Assembly: GCF_038022665.1 (NCBI RefSeq)
Contig: NZ_CP150629.1
Location: forward strand, 912,480 to 976,479
Direction of reading: 5' to 3'
DNA: 64,000 nucleotides
DNA from: Methanolobus sp. WCC4
GTDB taxonomy: Archaea; Halobacteriota; Methanosarcinia; Methanosarcinales; Methanosarcinaceae
Positions 10,194 through 19,246 of this stretch are shown here, in pieces. Position 1 is the stretch's first letter; each line of letters starts with the position of its first letter. The position numbers were made by a program, and so were the translations under genes. The notes beneath the pieces are model-generated. The model saw only the letters and a program-made list of their open reading frames with translations, ran no database searches and was not told the origin of the DNA.

Positions 10194-10970
10194 TCATTCC
10201 TCGTCGGATCCATTCTCCATAGGACCCTGACCGTGTTCTCCTCCATGTCTTGATGGTTGTGGGTTGTTCTCTCTGTATTCTTCCAGTATTTCCCGAAGTT
10301 CATCGAGTGTTGTTGCACCTTCAATGTCCTCAAGAAGTGCTTCAAGCTCGGTTATCTGTTCTTCAATAGAATCCTCTGTTATGTTCTCATCTTCTATCTC
10401 ATCGATATTCTCAAGCATCCCATTCAGCATCTCGATCCTATGGTTGATGCGTTCGGTCTGTCTTTCAACAACGAACTCCATCTCTTCTTCATCTGAATCA
10501 AATTCCATTTCTTCCCTTTCAGGTTTCTCGCCTCGCATTTCCGGCATCATGGATTCTCTTGCTTCATTCAGGATCTCTTTGAGTTCATCGAGTGTTGTTG
10601 CCTCTTCAATGTCTTCAAGAAGTGCTTCAAGCTCTTCTATATCTTCACTGATAGCTTCATATTCGTCGGTGTCCTCTTCGAGATCCGTAAGTCTTTCTGT
10701 GAGTCTTTCAATTCTGTTGTTTATGCGTTCTGTATGCATCTCAACAATGAACTCCATCTCTTCTTCATCTGACTCGAACTCCATGGCTTCAATAGGACCT
10801 TCATCACTCATCCCCGGGTTTCCCCTCAGACCTTGTTTCATTGGCTTTTCTCCAAATTCTTTTGAATCAGTGGTCCCTGTATCATCAGCAAGTGCACCAG
10901 GCATCACAGCACTAAGTACCATTGCTATTAACGAAATACATGCCACAACTTTCAGGAATCTGTGTTTCAT
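10194..10970 (-). CDS. Secreted acidic coiled-coil protein with internal duplication
   Basis: A 258-residue exported protein with a signal peptide ending near PGALADD. Two copies of a ~75-residue unit follow, one beginning EFESDEEEMEFIVEMHTERI (about residue 67) and one EFDSDEEEMEFVVERQTERI (about 152). Each ends in LEALLEDI..ATTLDEL.EIL. Heptad-like spacing and high Glu content indicate coiled coils. The function is unknown. Its promoter shares the AAGTATCCTTATATT sequence with two structured leaders in this region. A ribosome site GGAGG lies just upstream of the ATG. Confidence 0.75.
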   Translation of the reverse strand: MKHRFLKVVACISLIAMVLSAVMPGALADDTGTTDSKEFGEKPMKQGLRGNPGMSDEGPIEAMEFESDEEEMEFIVEMHTERINNRIERLTERLTDLEEDTDEYEAISEDIEELEALLEDIEEATTLDELKEILNEARESMMPEMRGEKPEREEMEFDSDEEEMEFVVERQTERINHRIEMLNGMLENIDEIEDENITEDSIEEQITELEALLEDIEGATTLDELREILEEYRENNPQPSRHGGEHGQGPMENGSDEE

Positions 10971-11607: not shown

Positions 11608-12510
11608 ATGAAGAAATTACCACTTGTCCTTATAGGGTTCCTTGTAGGAATGGTGCTGGTATCCGGCCTTGCTGATGTGAACAGGCATCCCGCAGGTCAT
11701 GAAGAACAGCATGGTATCATGTCGGATTACTCGGCCTATGTCAAAACGGAAATATCCGACCCACAGGCTCCTTCAACACCAGACGACCATGATGTATCCA
11801 GAGATGAGAAAGTATTCCTGGCTGGTAATATTGCTAAGTCGAGCGAGATGATAGAACGCCTTGAAAGTACAGTAGATTCTCTTGAAAAGGAAGGAAACGA
11901 TGTTCAGGAACTGGAACAGATGGTGAGTGAATATGCCTCACTTGTAGCTGAGTCAAAAGCTTACTTCTCAAAGACAGAGACCAGCTCTTCAAGTTCTGAT
12001 GAACTCGAGTATCTTGCATTGTCAAAGGACAGGATCGTCCAGGCGGATATGAAGCTGAAGGATATCTTCAATATGCTCCACTCATACCTTCCAGGACCGG
12101 TAAAATTGTCTGGAAATGATACCCTTATTCTTGAAGGATCAGGTATCGTTGTTCTGTCAGGTGACCTTGGTATCGACCTGAGTCTCGCTGAAGGAGAGTT
12201 CTCTGCGGTTGATCTTGCAGGTGATATGATAATTGATGCTGAAGAGCTTTCCAGTACCGGAATAATATCCGAGAGAATATTATCGGATCCTCTGGGTAAC
12301 TCTCACAGCATGGTCTCATACAATAAGGCAAATGGCACAGTTCTCATGTCGGGTTCGATCCTGAACGTAGCGATCAATGGCAAGGATCTGTTCCTTACTG
12401 TAGAAGGCACCGGAGAGGTTGAACTATTCGGAAAAGGGACCTATTCCATTGAAAATGGGTCAGGGATCATTGAAGGTATCTGGATCCCTCCAGTATTTGA
12501 AACAAAATAA
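11608..12510 (+). CDS. Exported protein, paralog of the 13389-14297 product
   Basis: A 300-residue exported protein of unrecognised family. A signal peptide (MKKLPLVLIGFLVGMVLVSG) leads into a short polar region. A helical coiled-coil-like part follows at about 65-150 (MIERLESTVDSLEKEGNDVQ). A beta-rich C-terminal half has Gly/Ser repeats such as LILEGSGIVVLSGDLGIDL and TVEGTGEVELFGKGTYSI, suggestive of a beta-solenoid or sandwich. The same architecture and many identical residues occur in the 13389-14297 product. The ribosome site GAGGTGAT supports the start. Envelope location is inferred from the signal peptide only. Confidence 0.75.
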   Translation: MKKLPLVLIGFLVGMVLVSGLADVNRHPAGHEEQHGIMSDYSAYVKTEISDPQAPSTPDDHDVSRDEKVFLAGNIAKSSEMIERLESTVDSLEKEGNDVQELEQMVSEYASLVAESKAYFSKTETSSSSSDELEYLALSKDRIVQADMKLKDIFNMLHSYLPGPVKLSGNDTLILEGSGIVVLSGDLGIDLSLAEGEFSAVDLAGDMIIDAEELSSTGIISERILSDPLGNSHSMVSYNKANGTVLMSGSILNVAINGKDLFLTVEGTGEVELFGKGTYSIENGSGIIEGIWIPPVFETK

Positions 12511-12566: not shown

Positions 12567-12776
12567 TGTTCCTGAGAGAAGGGTACTAATAGGGACGTAG
12601 CAGGGGAACGTGCTAAATGTCTCATTCTATTTCATCTTTAATATCCTGTATGTTGAAATTAAGGCTTCTTATTGGTTCAATAAGTTTTATCTTATTATTT
12701 ATCATCAATTTAGTGTTTTTAGTATTCTATAAAGCTTCATTATCATTTTAATCCTATTCGCCAGACTTTCTCATGT

Positions 12777-12797
12777 AAGTATCCTTATATTTGAAAT
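12777..12797 (+). promoter_or_regulatory. Promoter of leader copy 1
   Basis: AAGTATCCTTATATTTGAAAT contains a BRE/TATA-like box. The expected start, about 25 bases downstream, coincides with the first stem of the leader RNA at about 12812. The same sequence is found at 15423-15443 and, on the other strand, at 11068-11082. Confidence 0.55.
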
Positions 12798-12811
12798 AAC
12801 GAATTAGTGGA

Positions 12812-12975
12812 TTGCCCGTTGGTTAATACTGCTCTGGCGGGTACCACCAACTCAGGTGGCACCTGACACCCCAACCACATCCAGCCTAAGGTGCCACCAT
12901 TGTACCAACAACCCCCTCTCGTTTGGGAGATGCCCGACATATCCCGGGCATCTCCTGATCGATACAGGTGAGAAT
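12812..12975 (+). ncRNA. Structured leader RNA, copy 1
   Basis: Homologous to 15458-15627. P1 is TGCCCG (12813-12818) with CGGGTA (12838-12843). CCACC (12844-12848) can pair with GGTGG (12855-12859). Alternatively GGTGGCACC (12855-12863) pairs perfectly with GGTGCCACC (12890-12898), so the two forms exclude each other. The last stem is GGGAGATGCCCG (12925-12936) with 12945-12956. Conserved unpaired stretches are CCCCAACCACATCCAGCC and TGTACCAACAACC. The leader ends at the GGTGAG ribosome site of a 66-codon ORF. Stems in the two copies differ in sequence but keep pairing, which points to selection on RNA structure. The class was not recognised. Confidence 0.7.
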
Positions 12976-13176
12976 ATGGAAAACATTAAAGATTCTTTGA
13001 AACAATTCATCGATTCAAGACTTCAGGAAGCAACCCGTGCTCAGGTATTATGTCCGGAAAGGTTCTATGTAGCTGTGGGTGCTGTAAAGAAACTGGATCC
13101 TGATCAGATGAATGACCACCCTGGCCCTGTATCCGGGAATGCTCCGTCCTGCCCGGAAAAGGATTTTAAATGGTGA
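12976..13176 (+). CDS. Small protein downstream of leader copy 1
   Basis: A 66-residue ORF starting at an ATG with GGTGAG seven bases upstream, directly after the structured leader. It has a charged helical start (MENIKDSLKQFIDSRLQEA), two cysteines (LCPERF near residue 26 and APSCPE near 59) and the segment KKLDPDQMNDHPG. The L-x-PDQM part recurs in the small ORF after the second leader (KLSPDQM). No signal peptide or known domain is seen. Coding is supported by ribosome site, placement and the shared motif rather than by family recognition. Confidence 0.55.
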   Translation: MENIKDSLKQFIDSRLQEATRAQVLCPERFYVAVGAVKKLDPDQMNDHPGPVSGNAPSCPEKDFKW

Positions 13177-13388
13177 TCGATCCGGTCATCTAACCTATTT
13201 CTGGTCTTTACCTGATGCTATACGAATTATGTTGTGACCTTTTGATCCTTGTTAGAGGCATCAACTTATATATTATTTAATATCATTAAATCAAAGAAAA
13301 CGTTTATGATACATTAATATCTGTTAATCTTCCACAGACTTGCTATATTCGGATATTTGAATATGTATCTTTGCAGAAGTGATCTCCA

Positions 13389-14297
13389 ATGAAAAGGATG
13401 CCTCTTATAGTTTTGATATTCCTCATGTTGCTTGTTGTTATTTCAGGCATTGTGGATCCAGATGATATGCGTCAGTATCCTGATGACAGGGAGGGACGCA
13501 ATGATCTCCTGTCCCCTCCTTTTGATCAGAGGGACGGGCATGAAAGTAGGATACTTGTAATCCCGATAACCCCGGTTCCATCTGTGGATGCGGACCAATT
13601 CCTTGAGAACAACATAGAGGGATCCGAGGCGATGGTCAAGCGTCTTGATGATGCTGTAATACGTCTTAAAGCAGAGGATAATGACGTTTCTGAACTTGAA
13701 CAGAGGGTTGCGGATTACTCTGTGCTCGTAAGCGAGGCCAGGGAATATATGACAATGGCTGAGAGTTCCTCTACAGAAGAGGAGAGGCAGGAGTATCTTG
13801 AACTTTCAAGGGAAAGTATCATTCTTGCGAACCATGAGCTAAAACCTATCTTCGAGACGATGAAGACCTATCTTCCGGGACCTGTGGTCATAACCGATGG
13901 CAGCAGTCTGCTGGCAGAAGGAAGCGGTATTGCTATACTGTCCGGTGACCTTGATGCGGATATTTCAATCCAGGATGGCAAGTTCTCAGTAGTTGACTTT
14001 TCAGGGGATCTCCAGATAGAGACAGAATATGATTATGATCAGGAAAGCATTCCTGACATGGGTCCGGATGGAGGTCTGGCCAGGTCACATAAGGTCAGTT
14101 CATATAGGGATGTCACAGGCAATGTCTCATTGTCCGGCTCCGCATACTCTGTTGCAGTTATGGCCGATGGGATCGACATGATCGCCACAGGTACAGGTGA
14201 GGCTGAACTGGTCGGCAATGGAACCTACCACATCTATAATGGTACTTCCAGCGGAAAAGAGAATGTCTGGGTAAAACCGATATTCGGGAATGATTGA
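13389..14297 (+). CDS. Exported protein, paralog of the 11608-12510 product
   Basis: A 302-residue exported protein with the same plan as the 11608-12510 product: signal peptide (MKRMPLIVLIFLMLLVVISG), polar linker, helical region (AMVKRLDDAVIRLKAEDNDV) and a beta-rich C-terminal half (SLLAEGSGIAILSGDLDADI, MIATGTGEAELVGNGTYHIY). The recurring 'YLPGPV..' junction is also shared. Family unrecognised. It is followed after 23 bases by the membrane-anchored regulator gene, so the two are likely co-transcribed. That pairs a secreted protein with a sensor-like protein. Confidence 0.75.
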   Translation: MKRMPLIVLIFLMLLVVISGIVDPDDMRQYPDDREGRNDLLSPPFDQRDGHESRILVIPITPVPSVDADQFLENNIEGSEAMVKRLDDAVIRLKAEDNDVSELEQRVADYSVLVSEAREYMTMAESSSTEEERQEYLELSRESIILANHELKPIFETMKTYLPGPVVITDGSSLLAEGSGIAILSGDLDADISIQDGKFSVVDFSGDLQIETEYDYDQESIPDMGPDGGLARSHKVSSYRDVTGNVSLSGSAYSVAVMADGIDMIATGTGEAELVGNGTYHIYNGTSSGKENVWVKPIFGND

Positions 14298-14320
14298 CAT
14301 AAGGGATCAGGGTGTTTGAC

Positions 14321-15205
14321 ATGAGGAGGATATTATTCATTGCTATGATCGCCTTGCTTCTGCTACTGCCGGGAGTTGCTTCAGCAGATACTGCAACTGT
14401 ACACGGTGTAGCCTATGAATGGAGCACGTTCGAGCCACTGGACAATACGATCGTAGGTGTCAATTCAACACCTGAACAATCCATGGTGGCAAAATACGGT
14501 GTCTATTCCTTTGAGCTACCCAATGGTACCTATCAGATCACTGCAAGTTACTACGAGGAAGACCAACTGGCCTATTATGCGGAGGACGTTGTCACGGTCT
14601 CGGATGAAGGCAGTTATGTCCTTGACCTTCTACTTTTACCTTCATATTCCAGTTCAGGTGATGCAACAACTGAAACGGGTTCCGGGGAAGCAACTGTGAA
14701 CAGCAGTTCCCTTATGGCCGGTGCTGTGATCGTCGTTATTATCCTTCTTACCCTTCTGGTCTCCCAGATGAAAAAGAGGCCACAGACCTCTGTCTCTCAG
14801 ATGAAGAAGGTGGAAGTCTCCCATCCTGTTGCTCCGGAAGCTCCTGTAAAGGTCGTAGAGGAGGTCAGGGAAGAACAATCTCCTGTCCCGACAGCAGACA
14901 CTCCAGAGGAGCCTGCTGATGAGCTACCTGAAGAGCCGATCTCTGTTCCTGTACCTGATGAGCAAAAGGAATCTGTTCCTGTTCCTGTGCCTTCGGATGA
15001 GCCGGTTCCGGCAGACCTTCAGGAGATCCTTGATATTCTCAAGTCCCAGGGTGGAAGGATGACCCAGAAGGATATGCGTAAGAGGCTTAAGTATTCAGAG
15101 GGCAAGGTAAGTCTCATGCTCCTTGATCTTGAGAAGAGGGGCAAGATACAGAAGTTCAAGAAAGGGCGTGGAAATGTCCTGTTCCTTGTGGATCAGGACG
15201 AATGA
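14321..15205 (+). CDS. Membrane-anchored winged-helix regulator with extracellular domain
   Basis: The 294-residue protein has a signal peptide, then an extracellular carboxypeptidase-regulatory-like beta-sandwich (about 22-110, with NGTYQITASYYEEDQLAYYA). One transmembrane helix (LMAGAVIVVIILLTLLVSQM, about 131-150) and a long Pro/Glu/Val-rich linker follow. The C-terminal winged helix-turn-helix (about 232-294, RMTQKDMRKRLKYSEGKVSL) resembles archaeal MarR/DUF7343-type regulators. The DNA-binding domain is therefore cytoplasmic while the N-terminus faces outside, suggesting envelope-to-transcription signalling. The start at 14321 is preferred to a GTG at 14312 because GGTG lies six bases upstream. 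Targets are unknown; neighbouring envelope genes are candidates. Confidence 0.75.
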   Translation: MRRILFIAMIALLLLLPGVASADTATVHGVAYEWSTFEPLDNTIVGVNSTPEQSMVAKYGVYSFELPNGTYQITASYYEEDQLAYYAEDVVTVSDEGSYVLDLLLLPSYSSSGDATTETGSGEATVNSSSLMAGAVIVVIILLTLLVSQMKKRPQTSVSQMKKVEVSHPVAPEAPVKVVEEVREEQSPVPTADTPEEPADELPEEPISVPVPDEQKESVPVPVPSDEPVPADLQEILDILKSQGGRMTQKDMRKRLKYSEGKVSLMLLDLEKRGKIQKFKKGRGNVLFLVDQDE

Positions 15206-15240
15206 TCCCTTTGCTGTCCTTACCATTTTCCTGTTGTTCA

Positions 15241-15265
15241 ACTGGATGATTATTTGTCGTCCAGT
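15241..15265 (+). terminator. Hairpin terminator after the membrane regulator gene
   Basis: ACTGGA (15241-15246) pairs with TCCAGT (15260-15265), with GA/TC pairs inside, and a T-rich stretch follows. The remaining gap to 15420 is AT-rich with no other feature seen. Confidence 0.5.
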
Positions 15266-15422
15266 CTATTATCTATATTTGTTATTTAATTCTATTTTTA
15301 GATATAAGGTCCATTCTCTATTCTAATATGCTTTTTAAATATCTATGGAGCTTTAAATATCTATTTTATTCTCTATAAAGCTTTATTTTACAATCATGAC
15401 ACTTTTGTGTCCTTTTTCAAAT

Positions 15423-15443
15423 AAGTATCCTTTTATTTAAAAC
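15423..15443 (+). promoter_or_regulatory. Promoter of leader copy 2
   Basis: AAGTATCCTTTTATTTAAAAC is nearly identical to the sequence at 12777-12797. The expected transcription start falls at about 15458-15460, the first stem of the second leader RNA. Confidence 0.55.
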
Positions 15444-15457
15444 TACGAATCTGGTAA

Positions 15458-15627
15458 TTGCCTGTCAGCATTACTGCTATGGCAGGCACCACCCAAACCT
15501 GGTGGCACCAAACCCCCAACCACATCCAGCCCGGTGCCACCAATGTACCAACAACCAACCCCTTCGCATAAGGGACACCTGTTACCTATCCATCAGGTGT
15601 CTCTTATCGAAACAACAGGAGGATAAT
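15458..15627 (+). ncRNA. Structured leader RNA, copy 2
   Basis: Second copy of the leader at 12812-12975. P1 is TGCCTG (15459-15464) with CAGGCA (15483-15488); compared with copy 1, a C-G pair has become T-A and a G-T wobble has become G-C. CCACC (15489-15493) pairs with GGTGG (15501-15505), competing with GGTGGCACC (15501-15509) to GGTGCCACC (15533-15541). The last stem, AAGGGACACCTG (15570-15581) with 15594-15605, has a different sequence from copy 1 but equal length and position. It ends at a GGAGG ribosome site before a 55-codon ORF, 60 bases ahead of the ABC exporter operon. Confidence 0.7.
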
Positions 15628-15795
15628 ATGACAGATATGAACGATGCAAAGAAAAAGTACATAGGAACACTGGTACGCCGTGATCAAACTATGTCCGTAA
15701 CCAGGTCAGGTTCGATATCCATTGTTTCGTCTCTGGAAGCTAAATTGAGTCCTGATCAGATGTGTCGTCTGTCAAATATATCCCGTATGGGGTGA
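15628..15795 (+). CDS. Small protein downstream of leader copy 2
   Basis: A 55-residue ORF with an AGGAGG ribosome site, directly after the second structured leader. The sequence is basic at the start (MTDMNDAKKKYIG), Ser-rich in the middle and carries LEAKLSPDQM, echoing KLDPDQM in the small ORF after leader copy 1. No signal peptide, membrane helix or known domain is visible. It precedes the ABC transporter ATPase gene by 60 bases and could be translated from the same mRNA. It may act as a leader peptide; the function is unknown. Confidence 0.5.
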   Translation: MTDMNDAKKKYIGTLVRRDQTMSVTRSGSISIVSSLEAKLSPDQMCRLSNISRMG

Positions 15796-15855: not shown

Positions 15856-16602
15856 ATGGACGAGAATCATAATGACATACAGATAACTTCGGGAGATGCA
15901 CCTGAAACTCTCATGCGTCTTACTGATGTGTGGAAGATATACAGGATGGGAGAGGTCGAGTTTGCAGCCTTAAAAGGCATCGATCTGGAGATCATGCATG
16001 GTGAATTTGTAGTCATCCTCGGTCCCAGTGGCAGCGGTAAGAGTACAATGATGAACCTGCTGGGCTGCCTTGATCTTCCAAGCAAAGGAGTTGTTGAACT
16101 CAACAACAAGGACATTGCTAAAATGAAAGAATCAGAACTTGCCCAGATAAGGGGGCAACTTATTGGTTTTATTTTCCAGACGTTCAACCTGCTCCCTACT
16201 CTGAACACTATAGAGAATGTCATGCTGCCTTTAGAATTCCAGGAAGCAGATTCTGATGAATCATGGAAAAGAGCAGAAGAGCTTCTTGATGTAGTAAGTC
16301 TTGGAAATAAAAAGTACAACCTCCCTTCACAACTATCAGGAGGCCAGAGGCAAAGGGTTGCCATAGCAAGATCCCTTGCAGTAGACCCTAAAGTGATCCT
16401 TGCGGACGAACCAACTGGTAATCTCGATAGTGAAACAGGAAATTACATTCTTGAATTCCTCAGTGACCTTCACAGAAATGAAGGCAAGACTATCATAATG
16501 ATAACTCACGATCCAGAATTGACAAAGTATGCGGATCGTGTTGTTCATATCAAAGACGGAATGGTGGATAATATAGAGATAATAAAGCGTGAAGCAATGT
16601 GA
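15856..16602 (+). CDS. MacB/LolD-type ABC transporter ATPase
   Basis: A 248-residue ATP-binding subunit of an ABC3/MacB-class transporter. It has Walker [10 protein letters not shown] (about residue 58), Q-loop [13 protein letters not shown], signature [15 protein letters not shown] (about 158), Walker [13 protein letters not shown] and switch His in [19 protein letters not shown]. The [10 protein letters not shown] ending is characteristic of the MacB/LolD/FtsE class. It heads an operon with the COG1361 exported protein and the MacB-like permease, overlapping or abutting each. Substrate unknown; export or extraction of envelope proteins or peptides is plausible. Translation may be coupled to the small ORF upstream. 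Confidence 0.92.
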
Positions 16603-16607
16603 TAAAG

Positions 16608-17990
16608 ATGAAAAAAATATTATTACTTATGTTAGTGCTGTTGTTGCCAATAACCAATGCAGCAGCAGCTAGCCTGACTGCAGGTGCATCAGGGGTGAAC
16701 GTGGATCTTTTGAGCCAGAGTCCCTATCCTGCCAGGCCAGGTGAGACCGTAGAGATAACACTCAGTTTACAAAATGAGGGAAGCAATGACCTTTCTGATG
16801 TCGTCGTATCTTTAGATGCTGAGTATCCGTTCAGTCAGGTATCCGGTGAATCATTGTCCAAGACCGTATCCTACATGGAAGCTCGTCAGGATGAGGATGA
16901 TGCAACTTATCTAAAATTCAAGCTTAAGGTTGATTCTGATGTTTCAGACGGGACCTATGATATAGATGTGGTAGTGAAAGACAGTGAATCTGATTCCAGC
17001 TCAGTAACAACTCTTGAGGTAGAGGTTCAGGGTAAGGAATACGCTCAGATCGTTACCATTAGTGACTCGAGCATTGATGTTGCAACAGTAGAACCTCTTG
17101 AGTTTGTCATTACCAATACAGGTTCATCACCACTACAGAATATGGCTGTTTCATGGGAAGAATCAACCGGTACGATCTTGCCTGTATATTCCTCTAATAC
17201 CAAGTACATAAGTTCCCTGGATGTCGATGAATCTGCTACAGTGGTATACTCTGTGATGGCAGATGTAGATGCTGATCCCGGACTGTATCAGCTTGATATC
17301 ACACTTGAGTTCGAGGACTATGAATCAGACACGACTGTGATAGAAACCAAGGCCGGTCTGTTCGTAGGAGGAACCACTGACTTTGACCTGAGTTATTCCG
17401 AAAGTGACGAAGGTGAGGTTTCACTGTCCCTTGCGAACGTAGGTAACAATGAAGCTTACTCTGTGAAGGTCTCAATCCCTGAGCAGGACAATTTCCAGGC
17501 AACAGGAAGTACATCCACAATTGTCGGTAACCTTGAGAAAGGTGACTATACCATCACATCATTCTCAATAACCCAGACCAGTTCAATGCCATCCATGGGA
17601 GATGAGGATTCGACAGGTACAGCACAGGCTGAACCCACAGAGATGACTGCTGAAGACATGGAAGCAATGCAGGAAGAGATGGAAGCAAAGACCGAGCTTC
17701 TTGTCAACATAGAGTATACAGATTCTGCAGGACAGAGGCACACTGTGGAAAAAGCAGTTCAGATCGAGGAATTGACTGGTGGCACAATGGCAGCTGGAAT
17801 GTCCGGCGGACCAGGAGGTCAGAGCTCATCATCTAACAGTAACCTGTTGTATGGTGCTGTGATCCTGGTAGTCGTAGTTGTAGGATTCAATTACAGAAAG
17901 AAGAAGATGATGAAAGAAGGCAACTATGTCCCACTCAACGTAGAGCTAAGGAATCTCAAGGCCAAGATACTGAAGAAGGAAAAACAATGA
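16608..17990 (+). CDS. COG1361 S-layer-type exported protein of the ABC operon
   Basis: A 460-residue membrane-anchored exported protein. A signal peptide (MKKILLLMLVLLLPITNAAA) is followed by successive beta-sandwich repeats of the COG1361/CARDB type, seen in YPARPGETVEITLSLQNEGS, PLEFVITNTGSSPLQNMAV and GEVSLSLANVGNNEAYSVKV. A Met/Glu-rich insert lies near 335-370. A C-terminal transmembrane helix (LLYGAVILVVVVVGF) precedes a basic tail. Such proteins often pair with MacB-like permeases in methanogens and may act as the external adaptor. The start at 16608 is chosen for the GTGAT ribosome site; a GTG at 16599 overlapping the ATPase stop is an alternative. Confidence 0.85.
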   Translation: MKKILLLMLVLLLPITNAAAASLTAGASGVNVDLLSQSPYPARPGETVEITLSLQNEGSNDLSDVVVSLDAEYPFSQVSGESLSKTVSYMEARQDEDDATYLKFKLKVDSDVSDGTYDIDVVVKDSESDSSSVTTLEVEVQGKEYAQIVTISDSSIDVATVEPLEFVITNTGSSPLQNMAVSWEESTGTILPVYSSNTKYISSLDVDESATVVYSVMADVDADPGLYQLDITLEFEDYESDTTVIETKAGLFVGGTTDFDLSYSESDEGEVSLSLANVGNNEAYSVKVSIPEQDNFQATGSTSTIVGNLEKGDYTITSFSITQTSSMPSMGDEDSTGTAQAEPTEMTAEDMEAMQEEMEAKTELLVNIEYTDSAGQRHTVEKAVQIEELTGGTMAAGMSGGPGGQSSSSNSNLLYGAVILVVVVVGFNYRKKKMMKEGNYVPLNVELRNLKAKILKKEKQ

Positions 17991-19246
17991 GACGTAGTAC
18001 CTATATCAAGCTTGCTACCAACATCCTGGTCCACAGTAAGATCAGAAGCTGGCTCACTATAATAGGTATCGTCATTGGTGTTGGATCAGTTGTCACCATC
18101 ATGGCGCTGAGTGATAGTATGGCTGCAGATATGGAAGAACAATTCGCGGATATGGACCTTACATTGATCCAGATCACTCCTGGTTATTCCCATGCCTCCT
18201 CTGGAGGCCCAGGAGGAGGAGGTCCGCCTGGTATGGGAGGTAGTTCGTCAAGTACTTCCTCCGATGATGATGACCCGGAGTTGACCAAAAAGGATATACA
18301 GGCCCTGAAAGCGGTTGACAACTTGGATTACATCTATGGAGAGATATCCGGCAGTGACCTGGAAGTATATTTCATGGGTGAAACTGCGGATCTTTCAGTG
18401 ACAGGAGTTGACAGTCAGGTATGGCAGTACACTGTAACCTATGAGCTGGAATCCGGCAGATTGCTGGATGCCTCTGACGCTAACGTTGTGGTCATAGGGT
18501 ATGGTATAGCTCATGACATGTTTGACGATGAAGTAGGCCTGAACCGTGTGCTAACGATCGAAGGTAAATCTTACAGGGTCGTAGGCATACTGGCAGAAGA
18601 TGAAGATGATAATTCGATCTTCATGCCGATAGATGCAGCAGTCGAGATAATAGAAGATGCAGAGAATGGTGTTTACGATACCATCGTGGTCAAGGCATCG
18701 GATGTAGATTACGTTGAAACGGCTGTTGACGATATCGAAGAACGTCTGATGTTGTCAAGGGGCATCATGGATGAGGATGACAGGGATTTCTCTGTTTCAG
18801 ATTCACTATCAAGGGCAGAATCTGCCAGTGAGATGATGGAGTCCATGACAATATTCCTGGGAGCCATAGCAGGAGTTTCACTTCTCGTGGGTTCTGTGGG
18901 TATTGCGAACACGATGTTCACATCAGTAATGGAGAAGACCAAGGAAATAGGCACAATGAAAGCCATCGGTGCCAAGAACGGTGATATTCTTATGATATTC
19001 CTGTTCAACTCGGCACTGGTGGGCTTTGTAGGAGGCGTGCTGGGCATAGTGCTAAGTCTTGTGCTGACATCGCTGATGCCGTACCTTGGAATTTCCATGA
19101 TGCGTTCATCCATGGGTATGACGGTTGCTCCATATCTGATGGTGCTGGGTGTATCCATTGCAATATTCATTGGAGTGCTGTCAGGTATCATCCCGGCATA
19201 CAACGCTTCAAAGATGAGGCCGGTGGATGCACTGAGATACGAATGA
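17987..19246 (+). CDS. MacB-like ABC transporter permease
   Basis: A 419-residue permease with the FtsX/MacB layout. TM1 (SWLTIIGIVIGVGSVVTIMA, about 20-40) is followed by a large external domain (about 50-275), then three C-terminal helices (FLGAIAGVSLLVGSVGIANT, FLFNSALVGFVGGVLGIVLS and YLMVLGVSIAIFIGVLSGII). The coupling segment EKTKEIGTMKAIGAKNGDI contacts the ATPase. A Gly/Pro/Ser/Asp-rich low-complexity loop sits near residues 65-100. It overlaps the COG1361 gene by four bases (ATGA), so the three products are probably one complex. Confidence 0.92.
   Translation: MRRSTYIKLATNILVHSKIRSWLTIIGIVIGVGSVVTIMALSDSMAADMEEQFADMDLTLIQITPGYSHASSGGPGGGGPPGMGGSSSSTSSDDDDPELTKKDIQALKAVDNLDYIYGEISGSDLEVYFMGETADLSVTGVDSQVWQYTVTYELESGRLLDASDANVVVIGYGIAHDMFDDEVGLNRVLTIEGKSYRVVGILAEDEDDNSIFMPIDAAVEIIEDAENGVYDTIVVKASDVDYVETAVDDIEERLMLSRGIMDEDDRDFSVSDSLSRAESASEMMESMTIFLGAIAGVSLLVGSVGIANTMFTSVMEKTKEIGTMKAIGAKNGDILMIFLFNSALVGFVGGVLGIVLSLVLTSLMPYLGISMMRSSMGMTVAPYLMVLGVSIAIFIGVLSGIIPAYNASKMRPVDALRYE

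Follow-up and report, generated by a model that had tools for sequence, protein, structure and literature searches.

What do two similar intergenic stretches of the Methanolobus sp. WCC4 genome encode, and which gene do they serve? Both lie on contig NZ_CP150629.1, positions 912,480 to 976,479, a stretch of 64,000 nucleotides analyzed as a whole (hereafter the window, in whose numbering coordinates are given). A first-pass annotation had described them as two copies of an unrecognised structured leader RNA in front of tiny open reading frames (ORFs), and had proposed a riboswitch or other cis-regulatory RNA. Comparative analysis indicates that the folded leader RNA is real and previously uncatalogued, and that it stands at the start of the mRNA of a MacB-like ATP-binding cassette (ABC) exporter in Methanolobus. 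Model R1 bounds copy A at 12799-12962 (147 bits) and copy B at 15445-15610 (169 bits), both on the plus strand. These are the only two full leader copies in the 2.85 Mb genome, with a mean identity of 78% in pairwise alignment.

We investigated whether the leaders share a conserved fold. Folded as single sequences, they reached -71.3 and -65.5 kcal/mol (z = -5.0 and -6.7), and none of 200 shuffles folded as well as either leader. We then aligned 27 copies from 14 Methanolobus genomes, using sequence only, and took consensus helices from RNAalifold, adding three extra P1 pairs before covariation was counted. Three helices were obtained (P1, P2, and P3), in which standard pairs filled 95.4% of the cells. 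Two-sided changes were found in 16 of the 35 pairs, compared with 8.0 in shuffles, which do not correct for relatedness (0 of 500 reached the observed value), and the covariation score was 0.317 versus 0.213 in shuffles (0 of 500). When partners were slid by 1-3 columns, a control that retains relatedness, pairing was 37-46%, with 2-8 two-sided pairs. The base-pair changes first noticed in P1 were found again (C-G to U-A at columns 20/42 and G-U to G-C at columns 17/45 of A2). The 3' stem (P3) was also present, but with about 13 pairs and an additional UCG/CGA clamp of three pairs instead of the 12 pairs annotated. Wobble combinations in the paired columns comprised 84 G-U and 7 A-C, and the conserved structure is therefore plus-strand RNA.

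P1 spans 12814-12842 in copy A (12814-12823 with 12833-12842) and 15460-15487 in copy B (15460-15469 with 15478-15487). It is followed by unpaired ACCACC (J1/2; 12843-12848 and 15488-15493) and then by P2, at 12855-12898 (12855-12863 with 12890-12898) and 15501-15541 (15501-15509 with 15533-15541), whose loop carries the segment CCAACCACATCCA (12871-12883 and 15516-15528). A second unpaired stretch, GTACCAACAACC (J2/3; 12902-12913 and 15545-15556), leads to P3, at 12919-12962 with a TATCC loop and the clamp in copy A, and at 15564-15610 in copy B. Covariation supports all three helices. The unpaired ACCACC, CCAACCACATCCA, and GTACCAACAACC are 97-99% conserved (ACCACC 99%, GTACCAACAACC 97%), whereas paired columns are 85% conserved. 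This difference, read directly from the alignment, suggests that the unpaired segments are recognized by a partner. The model also produced weak antisense matches, which represent the palindromic P3 read in reverse.

The RNA was rightly called unrecognised: Rfam 15 contained no family matching the whole window at gathering scores, none matching the two leaders even at E <= 10, and nothing but an unrelated transfer RNA for the related leaders of other genera. Likewise, we found no description of this RNA among open-access papers. When 112 genomes of the family were searched at the DNA level, the leader pair turned up within the same genus, with copies about 2.5-3 kb apart. A covariance model, the homologue check suggested in the first-pass annotation, recovered 27 strong matches in Methanolobus, together with five single copies that scored lower (18-34 bits; "type II"). 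Elsewhere it matched twice in a single genome of genus g11 and twice in genome G081 (g13). Beyond these, almost no matches were found among 238 genomes of the class.

Within Methanolobus, the leader RNA and the MacB-like ABC operon occurred in the same 19 of 27 genomes, and the other eight lacked both (exporter presence scored by the exporter-associated protein at E <= 1e-20); the species are not independent, and we claim no p-value for this count. The leader position is also constant, between a DUF7343 gene and the ABC ATPase gene, so that it holds a fixed place before one operon and behind a promoter, as a cis-regulatory leader does. In the window, the operon behind copy B encodes an ABC ATPase (LolD/MacB type; 15856-16602), an exporter-associated extracellular CARDB/NPCBM-type protein (16608-17990), and a MacB_PCD/FtsX permease (17987-19246), all on the plus strand. 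As annotated, a tiny ORF follows each leader (12976-13176 and 15628-15795); the second of them stops 60 bases upstream of the ATPase gene. However, the constant partner of the leader is the exporter operon rather than the tiny ORF, because the ORF is absent in G058_A, G054, and g10 while the leader persists. In G054, which has lost the ORF, the leader lies about 45 nucleotides upstream of the ATPase gene; in g10, a P1-ACCACC-P3 leader with a similar promoter lies directly upstream of that gene, with no tiny ORF. The tiny ORF was thus rejected as the regulated unit, although it is under selection.

Both leaders lie behind the same promoter, as first noted. The pattern AAGTATCCTT[A/T]TATTT, which resembles a B recognition element with TATA box, occurs exactly at 12777-12792 (AAGTATCCTTATATTT, plus strand) and 15423-15438 (AAGTATCCTTTTATTT, plus strand), the only two perfect matches in the window. 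Upstream of it lies a box, AAAGCTTCATT for copy A (12731-12741) and AAAGCTTTATT for copy B (15377-15387), both on the plus strand. This box, AAAGCTT[CT]ATT, is found about 46 bases upstream of AAGTAT before most MacB leaders, with a spacing fixed across genera (loci L131-L148). It is likely a transcription-factor site, for which the neighbouring DUF7343 protein is a candidate factor. In most cases, the promoter recurs upstream of the exporter operon in g2, g5, g7, g10, g11, and g13, mostly with the box at fixed spacing and followed by strong hairpins. Type II, g11, and one g7 group showed a similar layout when folded on their own small alignments (L150 was left out of the five g11 rows), and the model scored at the right place in g11 (E = 0.0009 and 0.014).

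Conserved shape and conserved unpaired letters together suggest that the leader regulates the exporter. We consider it probable, though well short of certain, that it is a cis-acting regulatory element in the 5' untranslated region (UTR) of the exporter mRNA, with ACC strands that a trans factor recognizes. Under this explanation, leaders A and B are paralogous structured 5' leaders of the MacB-like ABC exporter operon mRNA of Methanosarcinaceae. Transcription would start just upstream of P1, from the promoter common to a small envelope regulon, and the RNA forms P1, P2, and P3, exposing ACC-rich single strands (ACCACC, CCAACCACATCCA, and GTACCAACAACC). These strands would be recognized by a trans factor, in the simplest case an RNA-binding protein but possibly a small RNA or ligand, which would set how well or how long the downstream mRNA is translated or persists, namely the tiny ORF and exporter for copy B and the tiny ORF for copy A. 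The comparisons above establish the fold, its strand, its conservation, the tie to the exporter operon, and the common promoter sequence; action in cis, binding of the ACC strands by a trans factor, and an effect on translation or stability are inferred from them. C/A-rich leader segments are likewise a feature of the ABC transporter mRNAs controlled by GcvB (Sharma et al. 2007, via PMC11456600); there, the C/A-rich elements reportedly occupy the ribosome site and positions upstream of it, as targets of a small RNA.

Several observations weigh against this explanation. Copy A is not directly before the exporter, and the leader lowers the openness of the ribosome site only slightly, so that its site of action cannot be seen. 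Among other-genus leaders, the model search found only those of g11 and one g7 member; RNA homology in g13, g10, and most of g7 would thus follow from place, promoter, and layout, and not from model scores.

Alternatively, the leader may be a metabolite- or ion-sensing riboswitch, refolded by a small molecule such as the exporter substrate or a toxic compound. It resembles bacterial and archaeal riboswitches in its helices, which covary, in its invariant unpaired motifs, and in its place as a structured 5' leader ahead of a transport operon and, elsewhere, of other genes. Its three-helix fold is compact and conserved, and a G081 copy precedes a flavoprotein/DUF4405 operon. In addition, four g7 leaders (L134, L136, L137, and L162) contain two competing helices, a local hairpin GCTACCAC/GTGGTAGC and a long-range helix of 12-16 pairs CTCTCAAGGTGG/CCACCTTGAGAG, the latter favoured by 4-20 kcal/mol. 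Nevertheless, we regard a riboswitch as unlikely. The first-pass annotation had drawn two mutually exclusive folds from CCACC and GGTGG, and this claim was not supported for the Methanolobus RNA: the ACCACC/GGTGG hairpin showed no compensatory change, was broken in a few sequences, and was 4.6-6.5 kcal/mol worse than P2. No expression platform with two evolution-supported exclusive folds was found in the Methanolobus RNA, and competing helices occur only in some g7 leaders. Nor is the ribosome site sequestered: its computed unpaired value was 0.47 with the leader and 0.54 without it, and translational occlusion was rejected. With no covarying alternative fold and no clearly hidden ribosome site, the sequence does not lead to a switch. 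Furthermore, conservation among the unpaired positions falls on plain ACC-rich strands and not on a compact junction core, and sequence diverges fast between genera, unlike in most aptamers. The leader also differs from known riboswitches in having no Rfam match, no expression platform backed by covariation, and no hidden ribosome site. Accordingly, what survives of the original proposal is a cis-regulatory candidate, supported by covariation, conservation among species, and the exporter link, but without exclusive folds or ribosome-site occlusion.

The leader could instead be the precursor of a trans-acting small RNA, with the tiny ORF or exporter merely downstream. In favour of this, copy A of G058 keeps its fold after loss of the ORF, G-rich ribosome sites offer possible pairing partners for the ACC-rich loops, and 195 small RNAs have been mapped in M. 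psychrophilus (PMC5378194). We nonetheless find this improbable, because the exporter operon accompanies copy B and every single-copy leader, with perfect co-occurrence, and the leader moves up to the ATPase gene where the ORF is absent. The start-site study of M. psychrophilus R15 reported that 24% of mRNAs have a 5' UTR longer than 150 nucleotides, and described nine conserved small RNAs that are induced by cold and share a box (PMC5378194). The leaders described here resemble these in genus, in the many UTRs of that length, and in promoter elements common to some RNAs, but the main text of that paper contains no description of this leader family.

A stability or temperature-responsive element, with hairpins that shield the 5' terminus or preserve translation of the mRNA at low temperature, would agree with the position of P1 at the extreme 5' end and of P3 just upstream of the ribosome site. 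Structured leaders also occur before ABC transporter genes as ROSE-type RNA thermometers (PMC11342760, PMC12857270). However, such thermometers are bacterial, whereas the Methanolobus leader has three helices and a ribosome site that is not clearly covered. A ROSE-type site would be paired in the cold and open when warm, but access here was, by calculation only, near-constant (0.43 at 15 C and 0.47 at 37 C). Unpaired sequence also exceeds the stems in conservation, which a mere clamp would not need, and we consider this explanation quite improbable. Finally, that the inverted repeats act as DNA, either as protein-binding palindromes or as a mobile element, is hardly credible despite the long stems and two copies 2.6 kb apart, since it is contradicted by the wobble asymmetry between strands, and since the two genome copies form orthologous syntenic pairs in relatives, indicating old cassette duplication and not transposition, with no match in phage or plasmid collections or viral contigs.

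The cis-acting leader explanation can be set within a wider promoter-defined group. Genome-wide, the promoter pattern had six matches, and the reversed control had none. Apart from the two leaders, the pattern preceded the gene for an acidic secreted protein (minus strand, window 10194-10970), the gene for a further secreted protein, at 1,901,072, that has no Pfam family at E <= 0.001, then a DUF4405 gene, and a VTC-DUF4956-Cthe_2159 operon. Upstream of the latter two lies a second leader type (G000:C1:2234441-, L096; and G000:C1:2322373+, L097, L178), which has an 11-pair stem AAGATCRCATGT...ACATGTGATCTT and an ACC-rich, G-poor loop with AATGTACCACCATACATGTCGTACACCA; about twelve Methanolobus genomes conserve it. 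Three genome matches were found for the motif pattern AATGTACCANCA...ACC, all in structured leaders (controls: 0). Judging from these patterns, the promoter and upstream box delimit a wider envelope regulon, part of which carries the second leader type. In G081, the two model matches (L082 9848-10012 and 12486-12650; 52 and 48 bits), with promoter and box, precede a DUF4405/fumarate-reductase-like flavoprotein operon and a gene for an Lcl_C protein; the presence of promoter, box, and RNA before other genes therefore fits a regulatory cassette. It is conceivable, although we would not expect it on present evidence, that these loci form a new archaeal post-transcriptional regulon, with an AAGTAT..TT.TATT plus AAAGCTT[CT]ATT promoter, at least two unrelated leader folds that share an ACC-rich code (AATGTACCA[AC]CA), and one trans-acting RNA-binding factor. 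Separately, a stem TATGCGAACGGG/CCCGTTCGCATA with loop AATGTACCACCAATCCTATCCAACCACCC was observed upstream of a PHP-domain gene (G000:C1:1333789; L129, L180); it has the ACC motif in common with the leaders, but not their promoter.

The paired arrangement of the leaders reflects the history of the locus. In the usual Methanolobus order, a 300-amino-acid secreted protein, a DUF7343 membrane protein, the leader, and the tiny ORF occur twice, followed by the ABC ATPase, extracellular protein, and MacB/FtsX permease; type II genomes have a single cassette. The window contains the secreted-type protein of the first cassette (11608-12510), its paralogue in the second (13389-14297), and one membrane protein with a C-terminal winged helix (DUF7343; 14321-15205), a candidate regulator, all on the plus strand; the DUF7343 gene of the first cassette has been lost. 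Leader identity was 83% for A-A, 84% for B-B, and 73% for A-B, and the cassette duplication therefore predates the split of these species. By this comparison, the two leaders are products of an old tandem duplication of the whole cassette (secreted protein, DUF7343 regulator, leader, and tiny ORF).

The tiny ORFs encode 66 amino acids in A (MENIKDSLKQFIDSRLQEATRAQ...KDFKW) and 55 in B (MTDMNDAKKKY...KLSPDQMCRLSNISRMG), on the plus strand. The ratio of nonsynonymous to synonymous polymorphism (pN/pS) is mostly 0.35-0.6 (about 0.4-0.5 for A; overall about 0.33-0.8), which indicates purifying selection, and the tiny proteins are therefore probably translated. Pfam and NCBIfam contain no family for them, and a search of viral contigs gave no match. 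The tiny proteins of A, B, and type II (MKDTFKQLIELRTQ...YVASALIRKLTPEQMDRLLKISPPGERGQDFHW) are related: those of A retain the first half and the DFKW end, whereas those of B retain the KLSPEQM..RL..ISP half. To judge from these remnants, the split of the ancestral protein between A and B looks like subfunctionalisation.

To our knowledge, few cis-regulatory RNAs are known in methanogens. The leader RNA described here has strong comparative support and one exporter operon as its partner, and the analysis sketches, in addition, an envelope regulon whose promoter is defined. As the leader is present in cultured Methanolobus profundi, M. vulcani, M. bombayensis, and M. psychrotolerans, its ligand, protein partner, and effect on expression are directly testable.

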